IMG/VR virus record: IMGVR_UViG_3300035034_002202
Location: 1-20,566 of that record
Reading direction: 5' to 3' (one strand)
Length of the DNA: 20,566 bases
Origin: a virus
Positions 3,429 to 19,139 of this stretch are shown in pieces. A program made the translations under genes and the position numbers. The notes below the pieces were generated by a model. That model saw only the letters and a program-made list of their open reading frames with translations. It made no database searches and was not told the origin of the DNA. How positions within the stretch are numbered: the stretch's first letter is position 1; each line of letters opens with the position of its first letter.

Positions 3429-3436
3429 TATTTATT
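3429..3436 (-). promoter_or_regulatory. T4-type late promoter for the giant fibre gene
   Basis: The minus strand reads AATAAATAC, one base different from the GATAAATAC used elsewhere in the window and close to T4 TATAAATA. It ends 33 bases before the fibre ATG. Its TAA is also the stop codon of the upstream exonuclease (3432-3434). In T4 such sites are read by the phage sigma factor gp55 together with gp33 and the sliding clamp. Confidence 0.7.
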
Positions 3437-4100
3437 CGAATTTGTATGTTTCGTAAAAGGAATAAAGACGATCATACCACATTGTTTTATATTTCTTCCA
3501 CTCTTCGCCTTCAATGACAAACTCTAAGTAACGTCCTGAGTGACAGCCCATCATTATAACACCCTTTTGTATGTCTGTGTCAAACATTTCATTGTGGGCT
3601 TCTGCATACGCAACGAGTTGCAAGAAGTAATCTTCTATCCACTCTTTCTTTTTATCTTGTTTTGAGTTTTTAAAATCAATGATTGCCGGCATGCCTCGGT
3701 GTAGTCCTACGCAATCCACTGTGCCTGCATACATATCAGATAAGAATAGTGGCGCTTCTATGCCCCACACTGCATCGACGTGCGCTAATCCTTTCTTGAT
3801 TATTAGGTTGGCAAGAACTTGTGAGAAGTAATTGCCAGTGGGCTTGGTGCCGTGGTTGATATAGTTTTCGAGGTTCAAGTGTAGTTGGTTGCCTACACCT
3901 CTGGATTGTTCTGAAATTCGATGAGCTTCTACTTCGCCTACACGCTCACGCCAAGCAACAAGAGCAGACTTATCTGCGGTGCTGTCTAACACGGTGGTTA
4001 CTGAGGGTAATGGACGATTACCACCTACTTCGTAGTGTCGATATCCATTTCGAGTGACTCTGTCGAGTTCTTTATAATTGTATGTTTGAGATAATAGCAT
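3432..4100 (-). CDS. PD-(D/E)XK exonuclease (Cas4/MGME1-like phage exonuclease)
   Basis: A protein of 222 residues. The motifs of the PD-(D/E)XK exonuclease superfamily appear in order: GNQLHLNLE with H74 and E78, GTVDC with D129, IIDFK with D142 and K144, and QLVAY (Q161, Y165), the QxxxY motif of AddB/Cas4/MGME1-type enzymes. PSVTTVL at 32-38 fits the family N-terminus. The expected activity is metal-dependent degradation of DNA ends, in recombination or host DNA breakdown. The gene has its own sigma70-type promoter whose -10 box ends six bases before the ATG, with no Shine-Dalgarno, so the mRNA may be leaderless. It sits between two structural modules, and its stop lies inside the late promoter of the fibre gene. 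The family call is firm; the physiological substrate is inferred. Confidence 0.85.
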   Translation of the reverse strand: MLLSQTYNYKELDRVTRNGYRHYEVGGNRPLPSVTTVLDSTADKSALVAWRERVGEVEAHRISEQSRGVGNQLHLNLENYINHGTKPTGNYFSQVLANLIIKKGLAHVDAVWGIEAPLFLSDMYAGTVDCVGLHRGMPAIIDFKNSKQDKKKEWIEDYFLQLVAYAEAHNEMFDTDIQKGVIMMGCHSGRYLEFVIEGEEWKKYKTMWYDRLYSFYETYKFE

Positions 4101-4125
4101 CCTGTAATTATAACAGAATGCTATT
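4093..4125. repeat. 33-bp imperfect palindrome over the exonuclease promoter and start codon
   Basis: Two 16-base arms surround a central base, and 14 of the 16 pairs match: AATAGCAT, one mismatch, CTGT, one mismatch, AT, then the mirror image. It covers the -10 hexamer (4107-4112) and the ATG (4098-4100). If transcription begins near the ATG, only one arm is transcribed. The symmetry then makes more sense as a DNA-level operator than as an RNA hairpin. Confidence 0.6.
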
Positions 4126-4135
4126 CGGTTGTCAA
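4107..4135 (-). promoter_or_regulatory. Consensus sigma70-type (early) promoter of the exonuclease gene
   Basis: The -35 box is TTGACA (4130-4135), the spacer is 17 bases, and the -10 box is TATAAT (4107-4112) preceded by TGT, an extended -10. Both hexamers match the bacterial consensus in all six positions. The stop codon TAG of the preceding gene ends two bases upstream of the -35. The predicted start of transcription falls on or next to the ATG at 4100. Confidence 0.85.
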
Positions 4136-4136
4136 C

Positions 4137-5030
4137 CTAGCACCAACAGATTTTCCACTGAATTGTGGTATTTGTTGTTGAGTTGATTTGTGCGGTTATG
4201 CTGTAACCTTTTTTGCGGAAGTATGTTATAACGCTTTGTATATCTTTTTCAACTGGGCAAGCCGCTGCCTGGTCGCTAAGATACAAATAGTAGTTAAGTG
4301 GATCTACGCCTGGTATAGGATTTGTTGTGAATGTTACTAATACCGTTGCATCTGCACCACCTGATGTTTCTGCTGGCACAACCGTTGCTGTTGTGGTCGA
4401 TTGGTAGCTGTGACCGACATTGTCAATTGTTACACCGGTGATCGAACCGTTGGTGTCGTCTACTGCAAGTGTTAACACTGCACCTGCTCCATTGCCAGCG
4501 TTCGATAACGCAATAGTAGGAAGTAAAGGAACATAGCCCGAACCACTAGATATAATAGTAACGCCCGTTATCTCTCCTGTGCTTAAATCAACTTGTACAG
4601 TTGCATCGAACTCAATGCCCGATGGATGTACAATTACAATGGTTGCATCTGCCAAGCCGCCGCTTGTATACCCAGTGCCACCTGCTGTAAGAGTGACCTC
4701 GGTAATGCTGCCGGTGGCATTAATGGTTAAATCAGCTGTTGCACCTGTTCCTGGGCCATCGAACTCAACTGTTGCAACTACTGGCTGGTAATCCTGACCG
4801 GCGTTGGTCACAATTGCAGATGCAAGCGAACCAAAGAAAGTCATTGGTGTGTCGCCTGCTACCACTGTGCAATAAGTACCCGATATGCAGTAATCTGCAT
4901 CGTTGCCATTGGCGCAATTCTGCACAGCATCAAGTATCTTTTCTTGTATTAAATTAATTTCTTTTAGTACCACTTTATTAATACTAACAAGATTCGATGC
5001 TTCGCTTGCTGATAAAAAATTATCTGACAT
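4137..5030 (-). CDS. Beta-repeat virion protein
   Basis: A protein of 297 residues starting at ATG with AGGAT four bases upstream. Residues 1-70 form a helical, then Cys-containing head. Residues 78-235 hold four repeats with period about 43, marked by GQDYQP (Y81), GTGYTS (Y121), GSGYVP (Y166) and GHSYQS (Y209), each followed by GxGAxA-like strands. These are the same kind of unit as in the giant fibre gene at 1-3395. The C-terminus (PVEKDIQSVITYFRKKGYSITAQ, then TIQWKICWC) resembles a terminal module I recall from cyanophage structural proteins. It is the last gene of a late unit with 5346-6464 and 5038-5346. The role is probably a fibre or surface protein; no enzyme motif is visible. Confidence 0.75.
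   Translation of the reverse strand: MSDNFLSASEASNLVSINKVVLKEINLIQEKILDAVQNCANGNDADYCISGTYCTVVAGDTPMTFFGSLASAIVTNAGQDYQPVVATVEFDGPGTGATADLTINATGSITEVTLTAGGTGYTSGGLADATIVIVHPSGIEFDATVQVDLSTGEITGVTIISSGSGYVPLLPTIALSNAGNGAGAVLTLAVDDTNGSITGVTIDNVGHSYQSTTTATVVPAETSGGADATVLVTFTTNPIPGVDPLNYYLYLSDQAAACPVEKDIQSVITYFRKKGYSITAQINSTTNTTIQWKICWC
4360..4800 (-). repeat. Four tandem degenerate beta-repeats within the 297-residue protein
   Basis: The encoded tyrosines at residues 81, 121, 166 and 209 mark units 40-45 residues long. The similarity is visible in protein (GxGY followed by GAGAxL or GATADL). DNA identity between units is low, which suggests old duplications. Confidence 0.6.
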
Positions 5031-6464: not shown

Positions 6465-6492
6465 AATATGTCCTTTATTCGGAATTTTTTAG

Positions 6493-6500
6493 TATTTATC
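6493..6500 (-). promoter_or_regulatory. T4-type late promoter
   Basis: The minus strand reads GATAAATACT, matching the T4 late box after its first base. It lies 28 bases upstream of the ATG at 6464. The preceding gene ends in TGA at 6499-6501, so stop codon and promoter overlap as TGATAAATAC. Confidence 0.8.
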
Positions 6501-8732: not shown

Positions 8733-8761
8733 GATATTTCTCCTGAAATAGTTATTTTGTG

Positions 8762-8769
8762 TATTTATC
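8762..8769 (-). promoter_or_regulatory. T4-type late promoter
   Basis: GATAAATACA on the minus strand, 29 bases before the ATG at 8732. It lies just downstream of the terminator at 8791-8816, so a new late transcript starts directly after the previous one ends. Confidence 0.8.
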
Positions 8770-10380: not shown

Positions 10381-11193
10381 CTACTTGATGTAGCGTGCTA
10401 TTTCAGTTGGGTAATCCCAACTCTTAGTTTTTAAATCGTGGTGATCAGAGAAATTATCTGCAATGCGATTATAAATTTCTTCGCGTTTCTTTACATCGTG
10501 CGCATACACAATGCCAACTGCTTCTATGATCTTCTCTGCGCTTGTTAGGTATTTATCATTTAACTGACCACGGAATAGCAGTCTTGCGACTTCAGCAGGG
10601 TTGTAATACGGGCCTTCGAGTTCGGTTTCCTTGGATGTCTTTGCGTATACACCATTGGGAAGAAACCGATAAGTTCTACGAATCTTGGTAAGTCCTGTTT
10701 TAGAAGACCACTTGTAACGCTTGCAATCAACACAAAGACCATCTGCATTAACATCGGTTGACAATTCTTCTCTGTCTGTCATGGATGCAAGTGCTGATAT
10801 TGCGGTGTTGCGGTGAGTGCCTTTCAAGCACGATTCCTCTGCGCTAGGCGAGTGATAATAAAAGTTAAGCCAAGTCGGATTACCAAATATAAAGTCAACT
10901 TGTACTTTATCGCCTGTCTCGGCAACTGTCCATGGAAAACTAATGTTGCCACCGAATTTTCTAACATCGTGGTCGTTGACCAGTGTCTTTGCAACCACAA
11001 ACAATTCAGTTTGTTTTTCTTTTGTGAGTAAATTGACTGCAATATCAAGGTCTCCACTCATTGGCTTCTTGCCCGCTGATCCAAGTAGTTTATAATCTGA
11101 CGGTATACCGAATGCTGTTACTATAGCGTTAACAGTTGTATTGATATGTTCTTTCTTGATTGGCTTAACATTACTAAAGGCATTGCCGCCCAT
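10381..11193 (-). CDS. DNA polymerase beta-fold nucleotidyltransferase
   Basis: A protein of 270 residues, ATG preceded by TAGGAGAACAAC. The active-site pattern of the pol-beta nucleotidyltransferase superfamily is visible: LLGSAG (G38, S39) followed by SGDLDI with D48 and D50, and the third acidic residue in KVQVDFIFG (D100). The following region has conserved-looking aromatic and basic residues (NPTWLNFYYHSP, KRYKWSSKTGLTKIRRTYRF), including a CVDC pair near residue 155, then a helical C-terminus. The enzyme would transfer a nucleotide to an unidentified acceptor (RNA, protein or small molecule). It starts an early-type unit with its own near-consensus sigma70 promoter. The superfamily call is good; the substrate is unknown. 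Confidence 0.75.
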   Translation of the reverse strand: MGGNAFSNVKPIKKEHINTTVNAIVTAFGIPSDYKLLGSAGKKPMSGDLDIAVNLLTKEKQTELFVVAKTLVNDHDVRKFGGNISFPWTVAETGDKVQVDFIFGNPTWLNFYYHSPSAEESCLKGTHRNTAISALASMTDREELSTDVNADGLCVDCKRYKWSSKTGLTKIRRTYRFLPNGVYAKTSKETELEGPYYNPAEVARLLFRGQLNDKYLTSAEKIIEAVGIVYAHDVKKREEIYNRIADNFSDHHDLKTKSWDYPTEIARYIK

Positions 11194-11698: not shown

Positions 11699-11985
11699 GA
11701 TATATAGAAGTTCAGTTCAAACGGAGTGGTTTCGGTACCGCGGTTGTATACTTGTACTGCTATGCCTTTGTTTAGTTCCTTACCATCTTTGTGTAACGGT
11801 AGAAGCAGACTAACAGTTTCGCCCTCAGGTGGCTTACGAGGTCCGTTGTTAACCAATCGGAACCAATCATCTTCGCTTACATCTAAGCCTTGTTTCTCGA
11901 CAACTAACCTTGCATGATTAATAGCGGCCGAATATGTGCTAAAATACGTGCGTTCTAAGTCTCTTTTAATTTCGTCTAATCTCAC
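11695..11985 (-). CDS. Small conserved phage protein, GTG start
   Basis: I place the start at GTG 11985 because AAGGA lies six bases upstream. A longer frame from an ATG at 12021 lacks such a site and would extend further into the ligase gene. The product is 96 residues: helical N-terminus (LDEIKRDLERTYFSTYSAAINHARLVVEKQG), then DDWFRLVNNGPRKPPEG, then strands ending in AVQVYNRG and PFELNFYIS. The shape suggests a compact alpha/beta fold. It overlaps the ligase gene by 20 bases and the next gene by four. Family and role are unknown to me; the tight coupling suggests production together with its neighbours. Confidence 0.7.
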   Translation of the reverse strand: MRLDEIKRDLERTYFSTYSAAINHARLVVEKQGLDVSEDDWFRLVNNGPRKPPEGETVSLLLPLHKDGKELNKGIAVQVYNRGTETTPFELNFYIS

Positions 11986-13120
11986 TTTCAATCCTTGATA
12001 ATTCGTCAAATGCTGTAACAAAGGCGCTTCTATCTCGTGTTCTTACACAAGCGGTACGTCGTTCAGTGTATTCGTGTCCGGTGATGCCTATTACAGTTAT
12101 ACAATTCTTTTCTTCTGCTTGGTATTTATCTATCGTATCGAGATACTTACTTTTTAATTCGGCTACCTGTTCAAGAGTGGATATTTCGCCTGCTTCTTTT
12201 CGTATGTTCTTTATCGTATCTCGAAACTTCCATATAAAGTTCTTTACTAAAAGGAAGGCGTGCTGATCCACTAGCTTGAATTCAATGTTGCCATCGGTGA
12301 TCACAAAACCCTCGTTGAGCATGCTGAACGAATCCGTAAACATGTTCACTGGAAAAAGTGTTGATTTTTTTTGTCTTAGTATGTCGCGGTATCTAGAACG
12401 TAACGATTTGAATATTGGCTTAACATCTTTCCACGGTAAATCAAACTTTGCAGGATGTTGTCTGTTTAGCGGCCAGTCTATTATGTCATGCACTGTTAGA
12501 TCAACACCGGAAACATGCTGTGTGGCACATAGGAATATTTGTAAACTCGATAGATATCTGGTATTTAATTCATGTGTGTGGTGGTCAATGGTGCGTATGC
12601 GAAACGAATGTTGTTTTTTGCTGACTTCGCTTTCGGTGTATGATTTTAAATTGACTGTTTTACATTTAACGTTTTCGGTCTTACCGCTTATTGACTTCAA
12701 GAAATATAAGGGGGCTTTTTTAAACAGCACTATCGTTACCACATCGGTATTGTGAACATAACACACAACGTTAGGCTGGAATCCGATTAGTACTTCTGCT
12801 CCCACTTCCTCGTCCATTTCGATTAGTTGTTCGACATAAGTGGAGTGTTCAAGCAAGGCAGCAAGTGCTAATTTCTGAAAGTTGGTAAAGAAGGAGGTCT
12901 CGTAGTCTTCTACGCGATAGTATTTTTCTTTCTTGTCACGTCGGGTGTAAATGCCTTTTTCGTCACGCCCAACAACGATGTTCGAACCGTCTAGCTTTTC
13001 AGTACACGAAAAGTCTGCAGGGCGAGATAAAAAATCTAGTATGTCTTTTGCGGGTAGGTCTTCAAAGTGTTTCATGTCTTGTTCTGCCATAGCGAAGTTT
13101 TGTACTTCGTATAATAGCAT
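11966..13120 (-). CDS. ATP-dependent RNA/DNA ligase-like nucleotidyltransferase
   Basis: A protein of 384 residues from ATG at 13120 (a TTG two codons earlier is possible). Nucleotidyltransferase motifs of the covalent ligase/capping superfamily appear in order: motif I TEKLDGSN with the candidate AMP-accepting lysine K42, motif III-like GAEVLIGFQPNVVCY (E109), motif IV EGFVI (E270) and motif V FKLVD (K282). The spacing between motifs III and IV is long, with an inserted region (about 145-260). The N-terminus up to about residue 30 and the helical C-terminus (300-384) lie outside the catalytic core. It would join or repair nucleic acid ends, perhaps RNA as T4 Rnl1 and Rnl2 do. It lies unexpectedly within a late, mostly structural block. 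The substrate cannot be told from sequence. Confidence 0.7.
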   Translation of the reverse strand: MLLYEVQNFAMAEQDMKHFEDLPAKDILDFLSRPADFSCTEKLDGSNIVVGRDEKGIYTRRDKKEKYYRVEDYETSFFTNFQKLALAALLEHSTYVEQLIEMDEEVGAEVLIGFQPNVVCYVHNTDVVTIVLFKKAPLYFLKSISGKTENVKCKTVNLKSYTESEVSKKQHSFRIRTIDHHTHELNTRYLSSLQIFLCATQHVSGVDLTVHDIIDWPLNRQHPAKFDLPWKDVKPIFKSLRSRYRDILRQKKSTLFPVNMFTDSFSMLNEGFVITDGNIEFKLVDQHAFLLVKNFIWKFRDTIKNIRKEAGEISTLEQVAELKSKYLDTIDKYQAEEKNCITVIGITGHEYTERRTACVRTRDRSAFVTAFDELSRIESEIRRN

Positions 13121-14684
13121 CTTCAAATACTTTTTGCAACTGTTCCAGTGTAATAGATTCTATTGTTCGGGATGGTCGCACTCTTGTCTTCTCGCCTGGC
13201 TGTGTGCTAACTCTAGCTCTTGGCTTTTCTTTAGCGGCTTCTGGTGGGTTCTTAATTCTGACACGTTGTTTTTTGCCTGGTTCTTTTTCTTGCTCTGGTC
13301 TTACTGTCTGGCGTGTTTTATACAACTTTTTGCCTGCAATGTCGTTAAGCATATTCTTTTTAACTGTGCTGTCTAGTTTAGAAGAATTTCTTATTACTTT
13401 GGTAACTGCATTGACAAGGTCGCTGTATTCTTCGTATTCTTGTCTGTCGTGCAAATAGTTTACAGCTTCGCCGGCAACTCTTTCTGCATCGTCTGTTTTA
13501 GCAAACTCGCGTGTCCAACGTGTCATGTATTGCCTAACTGCTTTTGCTTGAGAGCCGTCGGATGCATTTGTTACACGTGAAACACGCAATAGCACTTGCT
13601 TGATCTGGCTGTCGGATATAACAGCTTCTTCTAACTGCACTGATTCAGATATTTCCTTTGGGTACATGGTTTCTAAGTAATCAACAACGTGCGCTGTTAA
13701 GTTAATTCCTTTGATTGCGTTTGCAAAGCGAGTAACCTTAGGGTTACTGCCTTCGCCACTGTCTACATCAGCTTTGCCGAATGCTTTGTTGATTTCACGA
13801 TTGGATAGTCCTGCACTACTGAGTATCTTTTTAATCTCATCTATGTCAGTTGGTCGACCGCGTTTATTCCATGTGGTCAATAACTCATCGTAACTTAACT
13901 CTGGCTTATCGCCAAAGCCAAACTTTTCGTTTACGTTGTCTGCCCCTGCTAACTCACGCATGCGGTCCAGTTCAAAGTTGCTGTCCAAATCGCTTTCATT
14001 TACCGATGCAGTATCTGCAGGCCCGAGGTCTTTAACTGATTTTTCTAATGCACTTGATAACTTTTTACCTTTCATTACTTCTGAGACAGTAGACAAGTAC
14101 AGTATAATCGATGGCACTGCAATGTTGCGCTTCATCATGTCTGTTGCGCTGGCAAGTGACGCTACTGCAAAGGCACCGTACTGTGGTGCTCCTTTTGCTA
14201 CTTTTTCAATTTCGCCGATCTCTTCGGAGATGCGTGTGTATGAACGTGGTAGACGTCGGGCTTGTTCACGGGTTTTTAAGACCTGGGCTTCTATTTTGCT
14301 ATCGATCATTTCGATGGTGCGAGTAGCTGTTGGGCCACCTTGCTTGATTATGTTTATTAGTTTAGTGGTAGATGGCTCGGCGGCTTTAACAAGCGAGGTG
14401 AGCTTACCTTTAATCTGGGTGGATATTTTTGCAATTTTGTCAGCTGAGCCAACATAGGCATCTTTTGCTTTGGTAACGAGCCCTTTTTCACTACGCATAG
14501 CAACGGCGGTTTTAAATATCCGAGTGGCATCGCTAGGAGACAAATCGGCTTCTGCTAACACAAGTCGTATTGCCTTATCCGGCAATTCAGAAAGTAATGT
14601 TGCCGATTCGGAAATAACTCTGTTTTGCTGGGCTGTGATTGTTACTGCATTCCGTGATACTGATTCAAATAACTTATCAATCAC
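13062..14684 (-). CDS. Large late structural or internal virion protein
   Basis: A protein of 540 residues from GTG at 14684, with AGGGAATT upstream. It is mainly helical. ISESAT lies at 24-29 and ELDRMRELAG at 238-247; both recur in the 261-residue protein at 6938-7723. Residues 170-205 are hydrophobic (AFAVASLASATDMM, IAVPSIILYLSTVSEVM) and could form a helical hairpin in a membrane or a protein core. SYDELLTTWNKRGRPTDIDE (264-283) begins a small helical module I recall from marine T4-like phages. The tail (455-510) is strongly basic with RVRIKNPPE and RARVSTQPGEK, suited to DNA contact. It may be an internal or prohead-core protein. Its 3' end overlaps the ligase gene by 59 bases. Confidence 0.7.
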   Translation of the reverse strand: MIDKLFESVSRNAVTITAQQNRVISESATLLSELPDKAIRLVLAEADLSPSDATRIFKTAVAMRSEKGLVTKAKDAYVGSADKIAKISTQIKGKLTSLVKAAEPSTTKLINIIKQGGPTATRTIEMIDSKIEAQVLKTREQARRLPRSYTRISEEIGEIEKVAKGAPQYGAFAVASLASATDMMKRNIAVPSIILYLSTVSEVMKGKKLSSALEKSVKDLGPADTASVNESDLDSNFELDRMRELAGADNVNEKFGFGDKPELSYDELLTTWNKRGRPTDIDEIKKILSSAGLSNREINKAFGKADVDSGEGSNPKVTRFANAIKGINLTAHVVDYLETMYPKEISESVQLEEAVISDSQIKQVLLRVSRVTNASDGSQAKAVRQYMTRWTREFAKTDDAERVAGEAVNYLHDRQEYEEYSDLVNAVTKVIRNSSKLDSTVKKNMLNDIAGKKLYKTRQTVRPEQEKEPGKKQRVRIKNPPEAAKEKPRARVSTQPGEKTRVRPSRTIESITLEQLQKVFEDAIIRSTKLRYGRTRHETL

Positions 14685-15242: not shown

Positions 15243-15269
15243 AACAACCTCTTCTATTCTTGTTTTCAG

Positions 15270-15277
15270 TATTTATC
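15270..15277 (-). promoter_or_regulatory. T4-type late promoter of the 15242-11252 block
   Basis: GATAAATACTG on the minus strand, the best match in the window to the T4 late box. It is fused to the TGA stop of the acetyltransferase gene (15276-15278) and lies 27 bases before the TTG start at 15242. Confidence 0.85.
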
Positions 15278-15755: not shown

Positions 15756-17212
15756 TAATTGTCCATGCCTTTGAGTAAGTTCCTAAGCTGTGTTGTACGT
15801 TGGCCTACACCCTGTCCTTTATCGCTAGTGTCAGTCTTGTTTCTTTTATCTGATAACGCAGGGCTGGTTCCTTGAGCAGGGGGCTTCACTGTGTTGCTCT
15901 GTCGCAACTGGCTCATCACATTCTTGGTGCTCGATGTTAGTGCATCGTCATCACCTTCATCTAAATCGCTTATTCGTAATGTAACTGGTGAGAACGCTAA
16001 ATCTACTCTGCTACCTACACCTGCCGATGAACGTGTCTTCATGAACTGTATCTGATATCTTCCACTTTCTCGCATTGCTTGCGATGTAAAAATACCAATC
16101 ACGTTATCTGCTGTGTTGACTTTGGATATACCGCCTGCAATGTGACTTGGGTCAAATTCGACTTCTTCATATGAGCCCCTGTTCAACTGAGATGCTGTCA
16201 CACAAAGTATGTTCAGTTCAACTGCCATGTTGCGAAGTTCTTCTGATATGAACTTATCTTTCACAAACTGGTCGCTTGGACTAACTCTAGCAGATACAGG
16301 CATCATTAAGTCTAAGTAATCTACTAGCACAGCATCTATCCTCTTGCCAGTTTGTACTTCGAGCTCTTTGATGTATGCACGAATATCATGTGCTGTACAA
16401 CCATTAGGCATTTGTTTTAGGCGTAGTTCGCCTTTGTATTTGCGATAGAAGTTCTTTACCTTCATGGCAACGTTGTCTATGTCCTTGAGTACACCGCGGG
16501 TTTCTATGCCTGCTATCATTGCATCTATACGCATGCCAGTTAAGTTTTCACTTAGCTCAAGTGTTATGTAAACAACATTCAATCCTGCCTGTGCCCAGTT
16601 AACGCCCATGTTCTGTAAGAATAAGCTTTTGCCGGCACCTGATTGTCCTGCAAAGATACAAATTTCACCGCGGTTAAGTCCGCCGTATAATTTTGCATCC
16701 ACATCGCGCCAGCCAGTAGTAATCATACCGTTATTATCTTTAATAGCATTAAGGCGTGACACAGGATCATAAAAGTAATCAGTACCTAGGTTCTTGACTA
16801 GCCCTATCTGTACTGCTTCTTTGACTGCTTTTTCAACTTCTCCGTAACGATGCTCTTTGACCAGATCAACTGAATTCAGTATTACTGCTTCAATTGCCTT
16901 GTGTCGCACAAACGTTTCGTATTCGCCTAGAAACCAATCACTGTGACTTTCGTTTATGTCATCTAACTTTTCTAAACCTTTCTTTCCTGTAACAGCTTTA
17001 ATCTGTGCTATAGTAGGCAGGGAATTGTGGGCGGCACTGTGTTCTTCAAGAAATCGTATCACTGATTGATTTTCTTTATGATTGAAGTAATCGGGCTTGG
17101 TAATTCCTTTGCATCGGATAAACAGTTCCGGATCTGTGATCAGAAATTGAATAAACAAATCCTCAATTTCTTTTGTATAGTCCTTTATCTCGCTCAATGC
17201 TTCATTCTCCAT
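15755..17212 (-). CDS. 41: Replicative DNA helicase, T4 gp41-like (DnaB family)
   Basis: A protein of 485 residues, close to T4 gp41. The N-terminal helical domain (1-140) includes FLITDPELFIRCKGITKPDYF. The RecA-like core follows: Walker A GQSGAGKS at 189-196, DnaB motif VVYITLELSE (213-222), Walker B AVLVDYLDLM with D298, motif H3 VTASQLNR with Q342, and a C-terminal KTRSSAGVG arginine-finger region (392-400). The tail (420-485) is low in complexity and polar. It unwinds DNA ahead of the replication fork as a hexamer with primase. Its start overlaps the primase gene by 19 bases, so the pair is probably translated together. The acetyltransferase gene follows directly. Confidence 0.95.
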   Translation of the reverse strand: MENEALSEIKDYTKEIEDLFIQFLITDPELFIRCKGITKPDYFNHKENQSVIRFLEEHSAAHNSLPTIAQIKAVTGKKGLEKLDDINESHSDWFLGEYETFVRHKAIEAVILNSVDLVKEHRYGEVEKAVKEAVQIGLVKNLGTDYFYDPVSRLNAIKDNNGMITTGWRDVDAKLYGGLNRGEICIFAGQSGAGKSLFLQNMGVNWAQAGLNVVYITLELSENLTGMRIDAMIAGIETRGVLKDIDNVAMKVKNFYRKYKGELRLKQMPNGCTAHDIRAYIKELEVQTGKRIDAVLVDYLDLMMPVSARVSPSDQFVKDKFISEELRNMAVELNILCVTASQLNRGSYEEVEFDPSHIAGGISKVNTADNVIGIFTSQAMRESGRYQIQFMKTRSSAGVGSRVDLAFSPVTLRISDLDEGDDDALTSSTKNVMSQLRQSNTVKPPAQGTSPALSDKRNKTDTSDKGQGVGQRTTQLRNLLKGMDN

Positions 17213-18210
17213 TTTACCTGTGCTGAAAACGTATCGTAATCAGCGGCTTCCAGTATTGAAAGCATAGTAGTTATTCTTCCGTATTTTTCTACTGCCTTGG
17301 CGGCATCTTTGAATTCTGTATTCCAGAACGGAAAAGAAACTGCCCATCGATTGGCAACTGCAACATCGACTAACTGGCGGCCGCCTTTGTCAAAATCAGG
17401 CAATACAATAACTGTTTTATTTAACGACTTTATGAACGCAACTTGCGTATCGTTGATTTCGTTGCCTTGTGTCGATAAGCCATTTATGGCATACGCATCT
17501 ATTACACCCTCGGTCAATATAATATAATCATTGTGTGAATCTTGCCTATCGAGATTATATATAAAGTCGGATGGTGATATGTTGTAATATTTTGTGATTG
17601 CTTTGTTGTTGGGTTCGCCTGCGTATCTACCGGTGAAGCCTACAATATTATTTCTGTATGTAAACGGAATAACCAGTCTCTTGTTGAGCATTCCATTGGG
17701 CTGTGGTGTCCAGTAAAACTGATCAAAGTTTCTTATGCCGCGCTCATATGCATACTCAAGTACTTTAAGAAAGTTACGATCAGTGCATCCGTTATCTGCC
17801 CATTCCTGCACAGTTAATGCACTGGCGGGTAATGTAGCAGGTATCCACTTCGAACTGATGTTCTCGGCAATTTGCAGTTCTTTAACTGCATCCTTGCCAT
17901 AGTGCATTTTGTAAAGATCGAAGTTTAGTTGCTTTACTGTGTTGTGGGGTATTCCAATTTCTTGAAGGAACAGCGAGAATTCTCTGCTAAATGTTTCGCC
18001 TGGTACAAATTTTGACTTATGCCTACAGTTAAAACAACTCGTGGCAATGCCTCCGTCCGGAGAAAATACTATTCCGAAGCGGCCTCGTCTATCAGGAGAC
18101 TCTCCATGATGATGACACATCATGCAGTTGCGGCTTGACCAGCCTTTCCTTGTCTGCTGTACGGAACCGAGGTGATCCCGTATTAAACTTTCTAGTGTAT
18201 CCTTTACCAT
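17194..18210 (-). CDS. 61: DNA primase, T4 gp61-like
   Basis: I choose the ATG at 18210 (338 residues; T4 gp61 has 342), because a start at 18246 would lie inside the promoter. The zinc-binding domain is clear: C29-x2-C32 and C59-x2-C62 (NCMMCHHHGES, SCFNCRHKS). A TOPRIM core follows with LTEGVIDAY (E234, D238) and LPDFDKGG (D272, D274). The enzyme makes RNA primers for lagging-strand synthesis in complex with gp41, encoded next. The -10 box ends seven bases before the ATG and no Shine-Dalgarno fits between, so translation may be leaderless. Confidence 0.93.
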   Translation of the reverse strand: MVKDTLESLIRDHLGSVQQTRKGWSSRNCMMCHHHGESPDRRGRFGIVFSPDGGIATSCFNCRHKSKFVPGETFSREFSLFLQEIGIPHNTVKQLNFDLYKMHYGKDAVKELQIAENISSKWIPATLPASALTVQEWADNGCTDRNFLKVLEYAYERGIRNFDQFYWTPQPNGMLNKRLVIPFTYRNNIVGFTGRYAGEPNNKAITKYYNISPSDFIYNLDRQDSHNDYIILTEGVIDAYAINGLSTQGNEINDTQVAFIKSLNKTVIVLPDFDKGGRQLVDVAVANRWAVSFPFWNTEFKDAAKAVEKYGRITTMLSILEAADYDTFSAQVKWRMKH

Positions 18211-18217
18211 AGTCGCT

Positions 18218-18246
18218 ATTATAACACATCCGTTACGACCTTGCAA
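18218..18246 (-). promoter_or_regulatory. Sigma70-type (early) promoter of the primase-helicase unit
   Basis: The -10 is TATAAT (18218-18223), preceded by TGT (extended -10). The spacer is 17 bases and the -35 is TTGCAA (18241-18246), a 4 of 6 match. The extended -10 could compensate for the weak -35. The stop of the upstream gene (18233-18235) lies in the spacer. Predicted transcription start is at or next to the ATG at 18210. Confidence 0.75.
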
Positions 18247-19109: not shown

Positions 19110-19139
19110 TTGAAACATATAATTACACGTATTTATCAA
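19110..19139 (+). promoter_or_regulatory. Possible weak promoter for the plus-strand gene
   Basis: TTGAAA (19110-19115), 18 bases, then TATCAA (19134-19139) upstream of the ATG at 19151. The match to sigma70 is partial. The site overlaps the oppositely directed late promoter at 19130-19137, so the two could interfere. Confidence 0.25.
19130..19137 (-). promoter_or_regulatory. T4-type late promoter of the structural gene at 18233-19099
   Basis: GATAAATACG on the minus strand, 30 bases before the GTG start at 19099. It occupies the short divergent gap between that gene and the only plus-strand gene. Confidence 0.75.

Follow-up and report, generated by a model that had tools for sequence, protein, structure and literature searches.

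Background

In phage T4, the genes e, soc, 49 and I-TevI can be carried on a long upstream RNA in which the initiation site is hidden, and on a short RNA that stays open because its promoter lies within the 5′ arm of the hairpin (PMC3014915, PMC2988022). The hairpin of gene e cuts synthesis about 100-fold, and mobE of Aeh1 and segB are further cases of read-through hairpins (PMC3014915, PMC2988022). A conserved hairpin at the initiation site also lowers translation and tunes its timing in the sigG leader of B. subtilis (PMC5942855), and leaderless mRNAs have been described for lambda cI (PMC9031893) and for the −10-adjacent genes of Deinococcus (PMC12340547).

The locus described here lies in a viral DNA of 20,566 nucleotides (IMG/VR record IMGVR_UViG_3300035034_002202, positions 1 to 20,566), referred to below as the window. 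We propose, with a probability of roughly 0.58 and on the basis of sequence and predicted folds, that an element at its exonuclease gene does double duty as the promoter and the RNA hairpin of a leaderless gene, hiding the AUG in read-through RNA. As in the T4 e group, a helix would cover the initiation site in the long RNA while the gene's own transcript escapes it; the AUG-sequestering helix is found in the predicted fold, and a local transcript lacking the 5′ arm follows from the promoter geometry. In the T4 group, however, a late local promoter is paired with an early long RNA, whereas in the window the local promoter is of the sigma70 type and the upstream promoters are of the late type, and where the T4 hairpins mask a Shine-Dalgarno sequence, the exonuclease mRNA is predicted to be leaderless with the AUG itself masked. 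The window thus has neither a late local promoter with early or middle upstream transcription nor a Shine-Dalgarno sequence in the freed transcript, and given the reversed timing and the leaderless freed mRNA, the locus would work like the T4 e group without being a member of it. The sigG hairpin is likewise placed at the initiation site, but it masks the ribosome-binding site of a leadered mRNA and contains no promoter. Lambda cI and the Deinococcus genes share with the window a −10 box a few bases from the start codon and no ribosome-binding site, but we saw no read-through-blocking hairpin described for them, and the gene considered here encodes a nuclease in large T4-like phages. No leaderless version of the T4-type read-through hairpin was found described in the open-access papers searched.

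The exonuclease gene, its promoter and its neighbors

The following features define the locus:

3432–4100, minus strand: exonuclease gene, PD-(D/E)XK type (PHROG 298, E 8.6e-53)
4093–4125, minus strand: inverted repeat spanning the exonuclease −10 box and start codon (repeat search and fold)
4093–4105, minus strand: 3′ arm ACAGGATGCTATT, including the AUG and codon 2 (sequence and fold)
4101–4106, minus strand: 6-nt discriminator TACAGG, which sets the predicted +1 on the A of ATG; offset kept in relatives
4107–4112, minus strand: −10 box TATAAT with a TG extended −10 (promoter scan)
4113–4125, minus strand: 5′ arm AATAGCATTCTGT, within the promoter spacer (sequence and fold)
4130–4135, minus strand: −35 box TTGACA, 12/12 match with a 17-nt spacer
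4137–5030, minus strand: upstream gene of the virion-structural type, its end resembling PA5oct gp245, which is found in virions

The N-terminus of the exonuclease aligns with its relatives from M1, indicating that the ATG at 4100–4098 on the minus strand is correctly assigned. The stop codon of the upstream gene lies 36 nt before this ATG, and the gap is occupied by the exonuclease promoter, the minus strand reading TTGACA-ACCGAATAGCATTCTGT-TATAAT-TACAGG-ATG-CTATTATCT from 4135 down to about 4090. This promoter, called near-consensus in a preliminary description of the locus, is a perfect sigma70-type promoter (TTGACA-17-TATAAT) and the only one to score 12/12 in a scan covering 10 kb (half of the window). 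No Shine-Dalgarno sequence precedes the exonuclease ATG; several of the neighboring structural genes do have one. Since only six bases separate TATAAT from the ATG, transcription is predicted to begin at the A of the AUG, and the message should be leaderless, starting at the AUG or no more than one or two nucleotides from it.

This spacing is conserved. In 28 of 78 distinct IMG/VR relatives, a −10 box with a −35 partner is found exactly 6 nt before the ATG; offsets of 5 or 7 nt add 11 more matches, and other offsets yield about two per position. Within the clade collected by the promoter pattern, the offset is 6 in every match that precedes an exonuclease. The exonuclease start therefore has the marks of a leaderless gene: a −10 box conserved at about 6–7 nt from the start, and no Shine-Dalgarno sequence. 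In the jumbo phage 121Q of E. coli, the exonuclease start has a leader and an AGGAG resembling a Shine-Dalgarno sequence, showing that leaderlessness is not universal across the family.

The exonuclease gene lies among structural genes, and those upstream of it carry T4-like late promoters. The motif GATAAATAC, which by its sequence is of the T4 late-promoter type, is present at six sites in the window, always on the minus strand (0.33 expected) and mostly 27–48 nt ahead of structural gene starts:

6492–6500, minus strand: GATAAATAC, nearest late promoter upstream of the exonuclease, possible source of read-through
8761–8769, minus strand: GATAAATAC
10549–10557, minus strand: GATAAATAC
12122–12130, minus strand: GATAAATAC
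15269–15277, minus strand: GATAAATAC
19129–19137, minus strand: GATAAATAC

The site at 6500 lies 2.4 kb upstream of the exonuclease with no terminator seen between them, and it is the predicted driver of the genes running into the exonuclease. Elsewhere among these genes, the protein encoded at 11966–13126 (minus strand) contains EKLDGSNIVVG, which we take to resemble motif I of nucleic acid ligases.

A palindrome over the −10 box and start codon

The repeat search agreed with the preliminary description in finding a 33-bp palindrome that spans the −10 box and the exonuclease start codon. Its arms (4093–4108 and 4110–4125) are 16 nt each, 88% complementary (14/16) and separated by 1 nt, and the minus strand reads AATAGCATTCTGT-tataatt-ACAGGATGCTATT. 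As sense-strand RNA, the same interval is predicted to fold into a helix of 13 bp including one G-U pair, with a 7-nt loop and the AUG inside; the fold energy is −18.7 kcal/mol for the surrounding 63–78 nt.

The palindrome had been judged unlikely to arise by chance, a statement that depends on whether its position is considered. It is the only palindrome of at least 14/16 (gap 0–7) in the whole window, and Markov shuffles of the window contain 0.09 such palindromes on average, with at least one in 5.7% of shuffles. The whole-window argument against an accidental palindrome is thus modest; its position makes chance much less likely. When the −35 box, the −10 box and all codons were held and the remainder randomized (n = 20,000), 51 sequences folded as stably and just 11 of these also buried the whole AUG, indicating that the codons for MLLS together with a TATAAT box do not account for the match.

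The nearest relatives retain the promoter, still 6 nt from the ATG, and in them the DNA palindrome is gone (9–10/16 at best). Their predicted read-through RNA still pairs the start region, using a 5′ arm that lies upstream of the −35 box or includes it, and such folds predict that relatives rebuild from other sequences a hairpin covering either the promoter or the start codon. No near-identical relative of the window's phage was found, and the evidence for compensatory change comes from a clade of 18 distinct aligned sequences. A two-helix structure pairs 84% of cells in this clade versus 27–47% when slid by 1–3 columns, a control biased towards the structure because it was written down from the same sequences. 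Three pairs have changed on both sides (A-U/U-A, G-C/U-A and A-U/G-C), and the covariation score of 0.114, versus 0.080 in shuffles that ignore relatedness, was reached by 0 of 500 shuffles. The clade contains 48 G-U cells versus 24 A-C cells, a tally that shared ancestry prevents from being independent evidence. RNAalifold by itself recovered only the inner stem of the structure.

Proposed mechanism

Host-type RNA polymerase would make a leaderless exonuclease mRNA from the local promoter, probably early; the early activity of a sigma70-type promoter in this phage is an inference from T4 biology. This transcript would begin inside the hairpin without the 5′ arm, and so be open and translated as a leaderless message. 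Late read-through transcripts from upstream would hold both arms and fold the 13-bp hairpin, burying the AUG and blocking initiation, and the same hairpin may stop re-initiation by ribosomes that finish the upstream gene 36 nt away. This mechanism is supported by the perfect promoter, the conserved 6-nt offset, the fold that buries the AUG, the clade covariation and the late promoters, together with the comparisons described below: the pooled opening cost of the AUG, the AUG pairing and inverted repeats at leaderless starts, and the PA5oct exonuclease in its setting among virion proteins. Read-through RNA that has no Shine-Dalgarno sequence may be poorly translated anyway, which would make the hairpin redundant; the locus provides a natural test of whether an internal AUG of this kind is ever used and needs masking. 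If the mechanism is true, an early-type gene can sit in a late cluster and go untranslated late with no protein regulator, and the T4 lysozyme paradigm would come to include leaderless mRNAs and the opposite timing.

Possible self-masking hairpins in other lineages

Among 22 lineages whose leaderless promoter is strong, 6 had a cost of opening the AUG above that of shuffled sequences at p < 0.05; pooled over all 22, Fisher's p was 0.0007, or 0.004 without the window. AUG masking among leaderless lineages is therefore not universal. The AUG is paired at 0.67 at leaderless versus 0.47 at other exonuclease starts (p = 0.003), and the leaderless set compared only with its own shuffles gave p = 0.13. 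Ungapped inverted repeats scoring at least 8 were present at 8 of 27 leaderless starts versus 2 of 48 others. The internal sense-strand mismatches of the repeats found are G-T or other, never A-C, which fits RNA pairing, the count being small. In several lineages, the hairpin covers the spacer and −10 box instead of the AUG. Perfect or near-perfect inverted repeats of 11 to 15 bp with unrelated sequences occur in lineages L210 (−36 to −7 from the ATG) and L169 (−36 to 0), where they span the promoters of other exonuclease relatives.

The cultured Pseudomonas jumbo phage PA5oct (NC_071039) provides the closest comparison. Its exonuclease, gp244, whose AUG begins at position 158242, is annotated without regulatory features. 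It is preceded by TTGACA-17-TATAAT-7-ATG with a hairpin of its own, and a scan of about 300 PA5oct ORFs gave no other clear case of such a promoter at a first ATG. The gene order structural genes, primase, helicase, structural genes and exonuclease is common to PA5oct and the window, and the PA5oct exonuclease lies between proteins found in its virions. The gp244 gene matches the window in lying between structural genes, in its perfect promoter and, by eye, in an ATAGC at the same spacer position in the hairpin; it differs in a 3′ arm that, also by eye, is shifted by 4 nt, and in an AUG that lies on the margin of a hairpin weaker than that of the window. The cost of opening this AUG is little above expectation (p = 0.39).

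The mechanism proposed for the window is weakened by the masking being significant in so few lineages and by the PA5oct result, as well as by the p value within the leaderless set and the partial RNAalifold structure. We consider it tentative, somewhat short of an even chance, that large T4-like phages use a general device in which early-type genes within late operons are leaderless and carry a self-masking hairpin. In such a device, the hairpin's 5′ arm and loop would themselves form the promoter, translation would be confined to transcripts that start at the gene, and one DNA stretch would act at once as promoter, initiation codon and RNA lock. Because the laboratory strain P. aeruginosa PAO1 is a host for PA5oct and related phages such as Paride, the leaderless start is directly testable.

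Alternative explanations

The leaderless promoter could be real and the hairpin a lineage-specific accident or unselected by-product with no regulatory role here. Around 6% of shuffled windows yield a palindrome as good and most leaderless lineages have no significant AUG masking, but the scarcity of matches under constrained randomization, the enrichment of leaderless starts for inverted repeats and the compensatory changes in the clade make this explanation improbable, though it fares best among the alternatives.

Somewhat less probable still is a DNA operator, the preliminary interpretation, in which a phage or host dimeric repressor would bind the palindrome at the −10 box and shut an early promoter. 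The dyad symmetry is near-perfect and placed on the −10 box and start, and other lineages (e.g., L210 and L168) carry perfect palindromes over the spacer and −10 box. Such repeats, which leave the AUG uncovered, keep the operator reading alive and count against RNA masking, since an operator would sit there too. The motif, however, is not kept in relatives: arm sequences differ in every lineage, spacing varies, and one clade shifts both the arm spacing and the position, with the 5′ arm upstream of −35. A search for the half-site gave 27 matches at up to 3 mismatches versus 23.8 expected, and thus no second copy beyond chance within the 20.6-kb record, which is a genome fragment; the internal mismatches are G-T rather than A-C. 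A pattern search of IMG/VR with the palindrome gave one chance-like match, in a 211-kb contig, with no exonuclease nearby and no promoter-start arrangement noted. Of the earlier interpretation, a regulatory repeat on the promoter and start that plausibly limits nuclease timing is retained, and the dimeric-repressor operator is set aside; a protein operator at 4093–4125 is possible but unsupported.

Bacterial sequences with a similar core were also considered. A pattern search of bacterial genomes gave 48 matches, mostly a tandem TGACAGCATGCTGTCA and terminator-like hairpins. The tandem TGACAGCATGCTGTCA, with the operator-like core AGCATnCTGT-n7-ACAGnATGCT, recurs in actinobacteria and others, including Streptomyces, Nocardia, Rhodopseudomonas and Ktedonobacter (L292–L339), and looks like the operator of some bacterial regulator; no relevant paper on it was found. 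These matches would favor an operator at the window site, but were rejected as evidence for one, as the TGAC/GTCA flanks of the bacterial motif are missing at 4093–4125. A LexA-type reading of CTGT...ACAG was rejected on spacing, which is CTG-N9-CAG, the LexA box of E. coli having N10.

A role for the hairpin in the upstream structural gene, as 3′ end protection, processing site or mRNA terminator, is very unlikely: the hairpin begins about 11 nt past that gene's stop codon, but in the clade its 3′ arm extends into the AUG or codon 2 of the downstream gene, away from the stop codon, and an intrinsic terminator was rejected because no U-run follows (the next bases are ATCTCAAACATA) and none is predicted there.

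Other predicted leaderless starts

A second start in the window has a layout similar to that predicted for the leaderless exonuclease:

17194–18210, minus strand: primase gene, predicted leaderless (TTGCAA at 18246–18241, TATAAT at 18223–18218, 7 nt to the ATG at 18210)

The spacing is TTGCAA-17-TATAAT-7-ATG (18210–18246), and no AUG-masking hairpin comparable to that of the exonuclease was found at this start. Genes with N-termini similar to that of the primase show the same leaderless layout in contigs G002 and G005, suggesting that leaderless starts may mark replication genes of this phage group; the PA5oct primase was absent from the leaderless-start scan of that phage. In lineage L237, the conserved exonuclease promoter is kept at about 810–831, the exonuclease start is missing from its usual place and a late-type TGATAAATA site follows soon after, which suggests that the gene was lost and its promoter orphaned.
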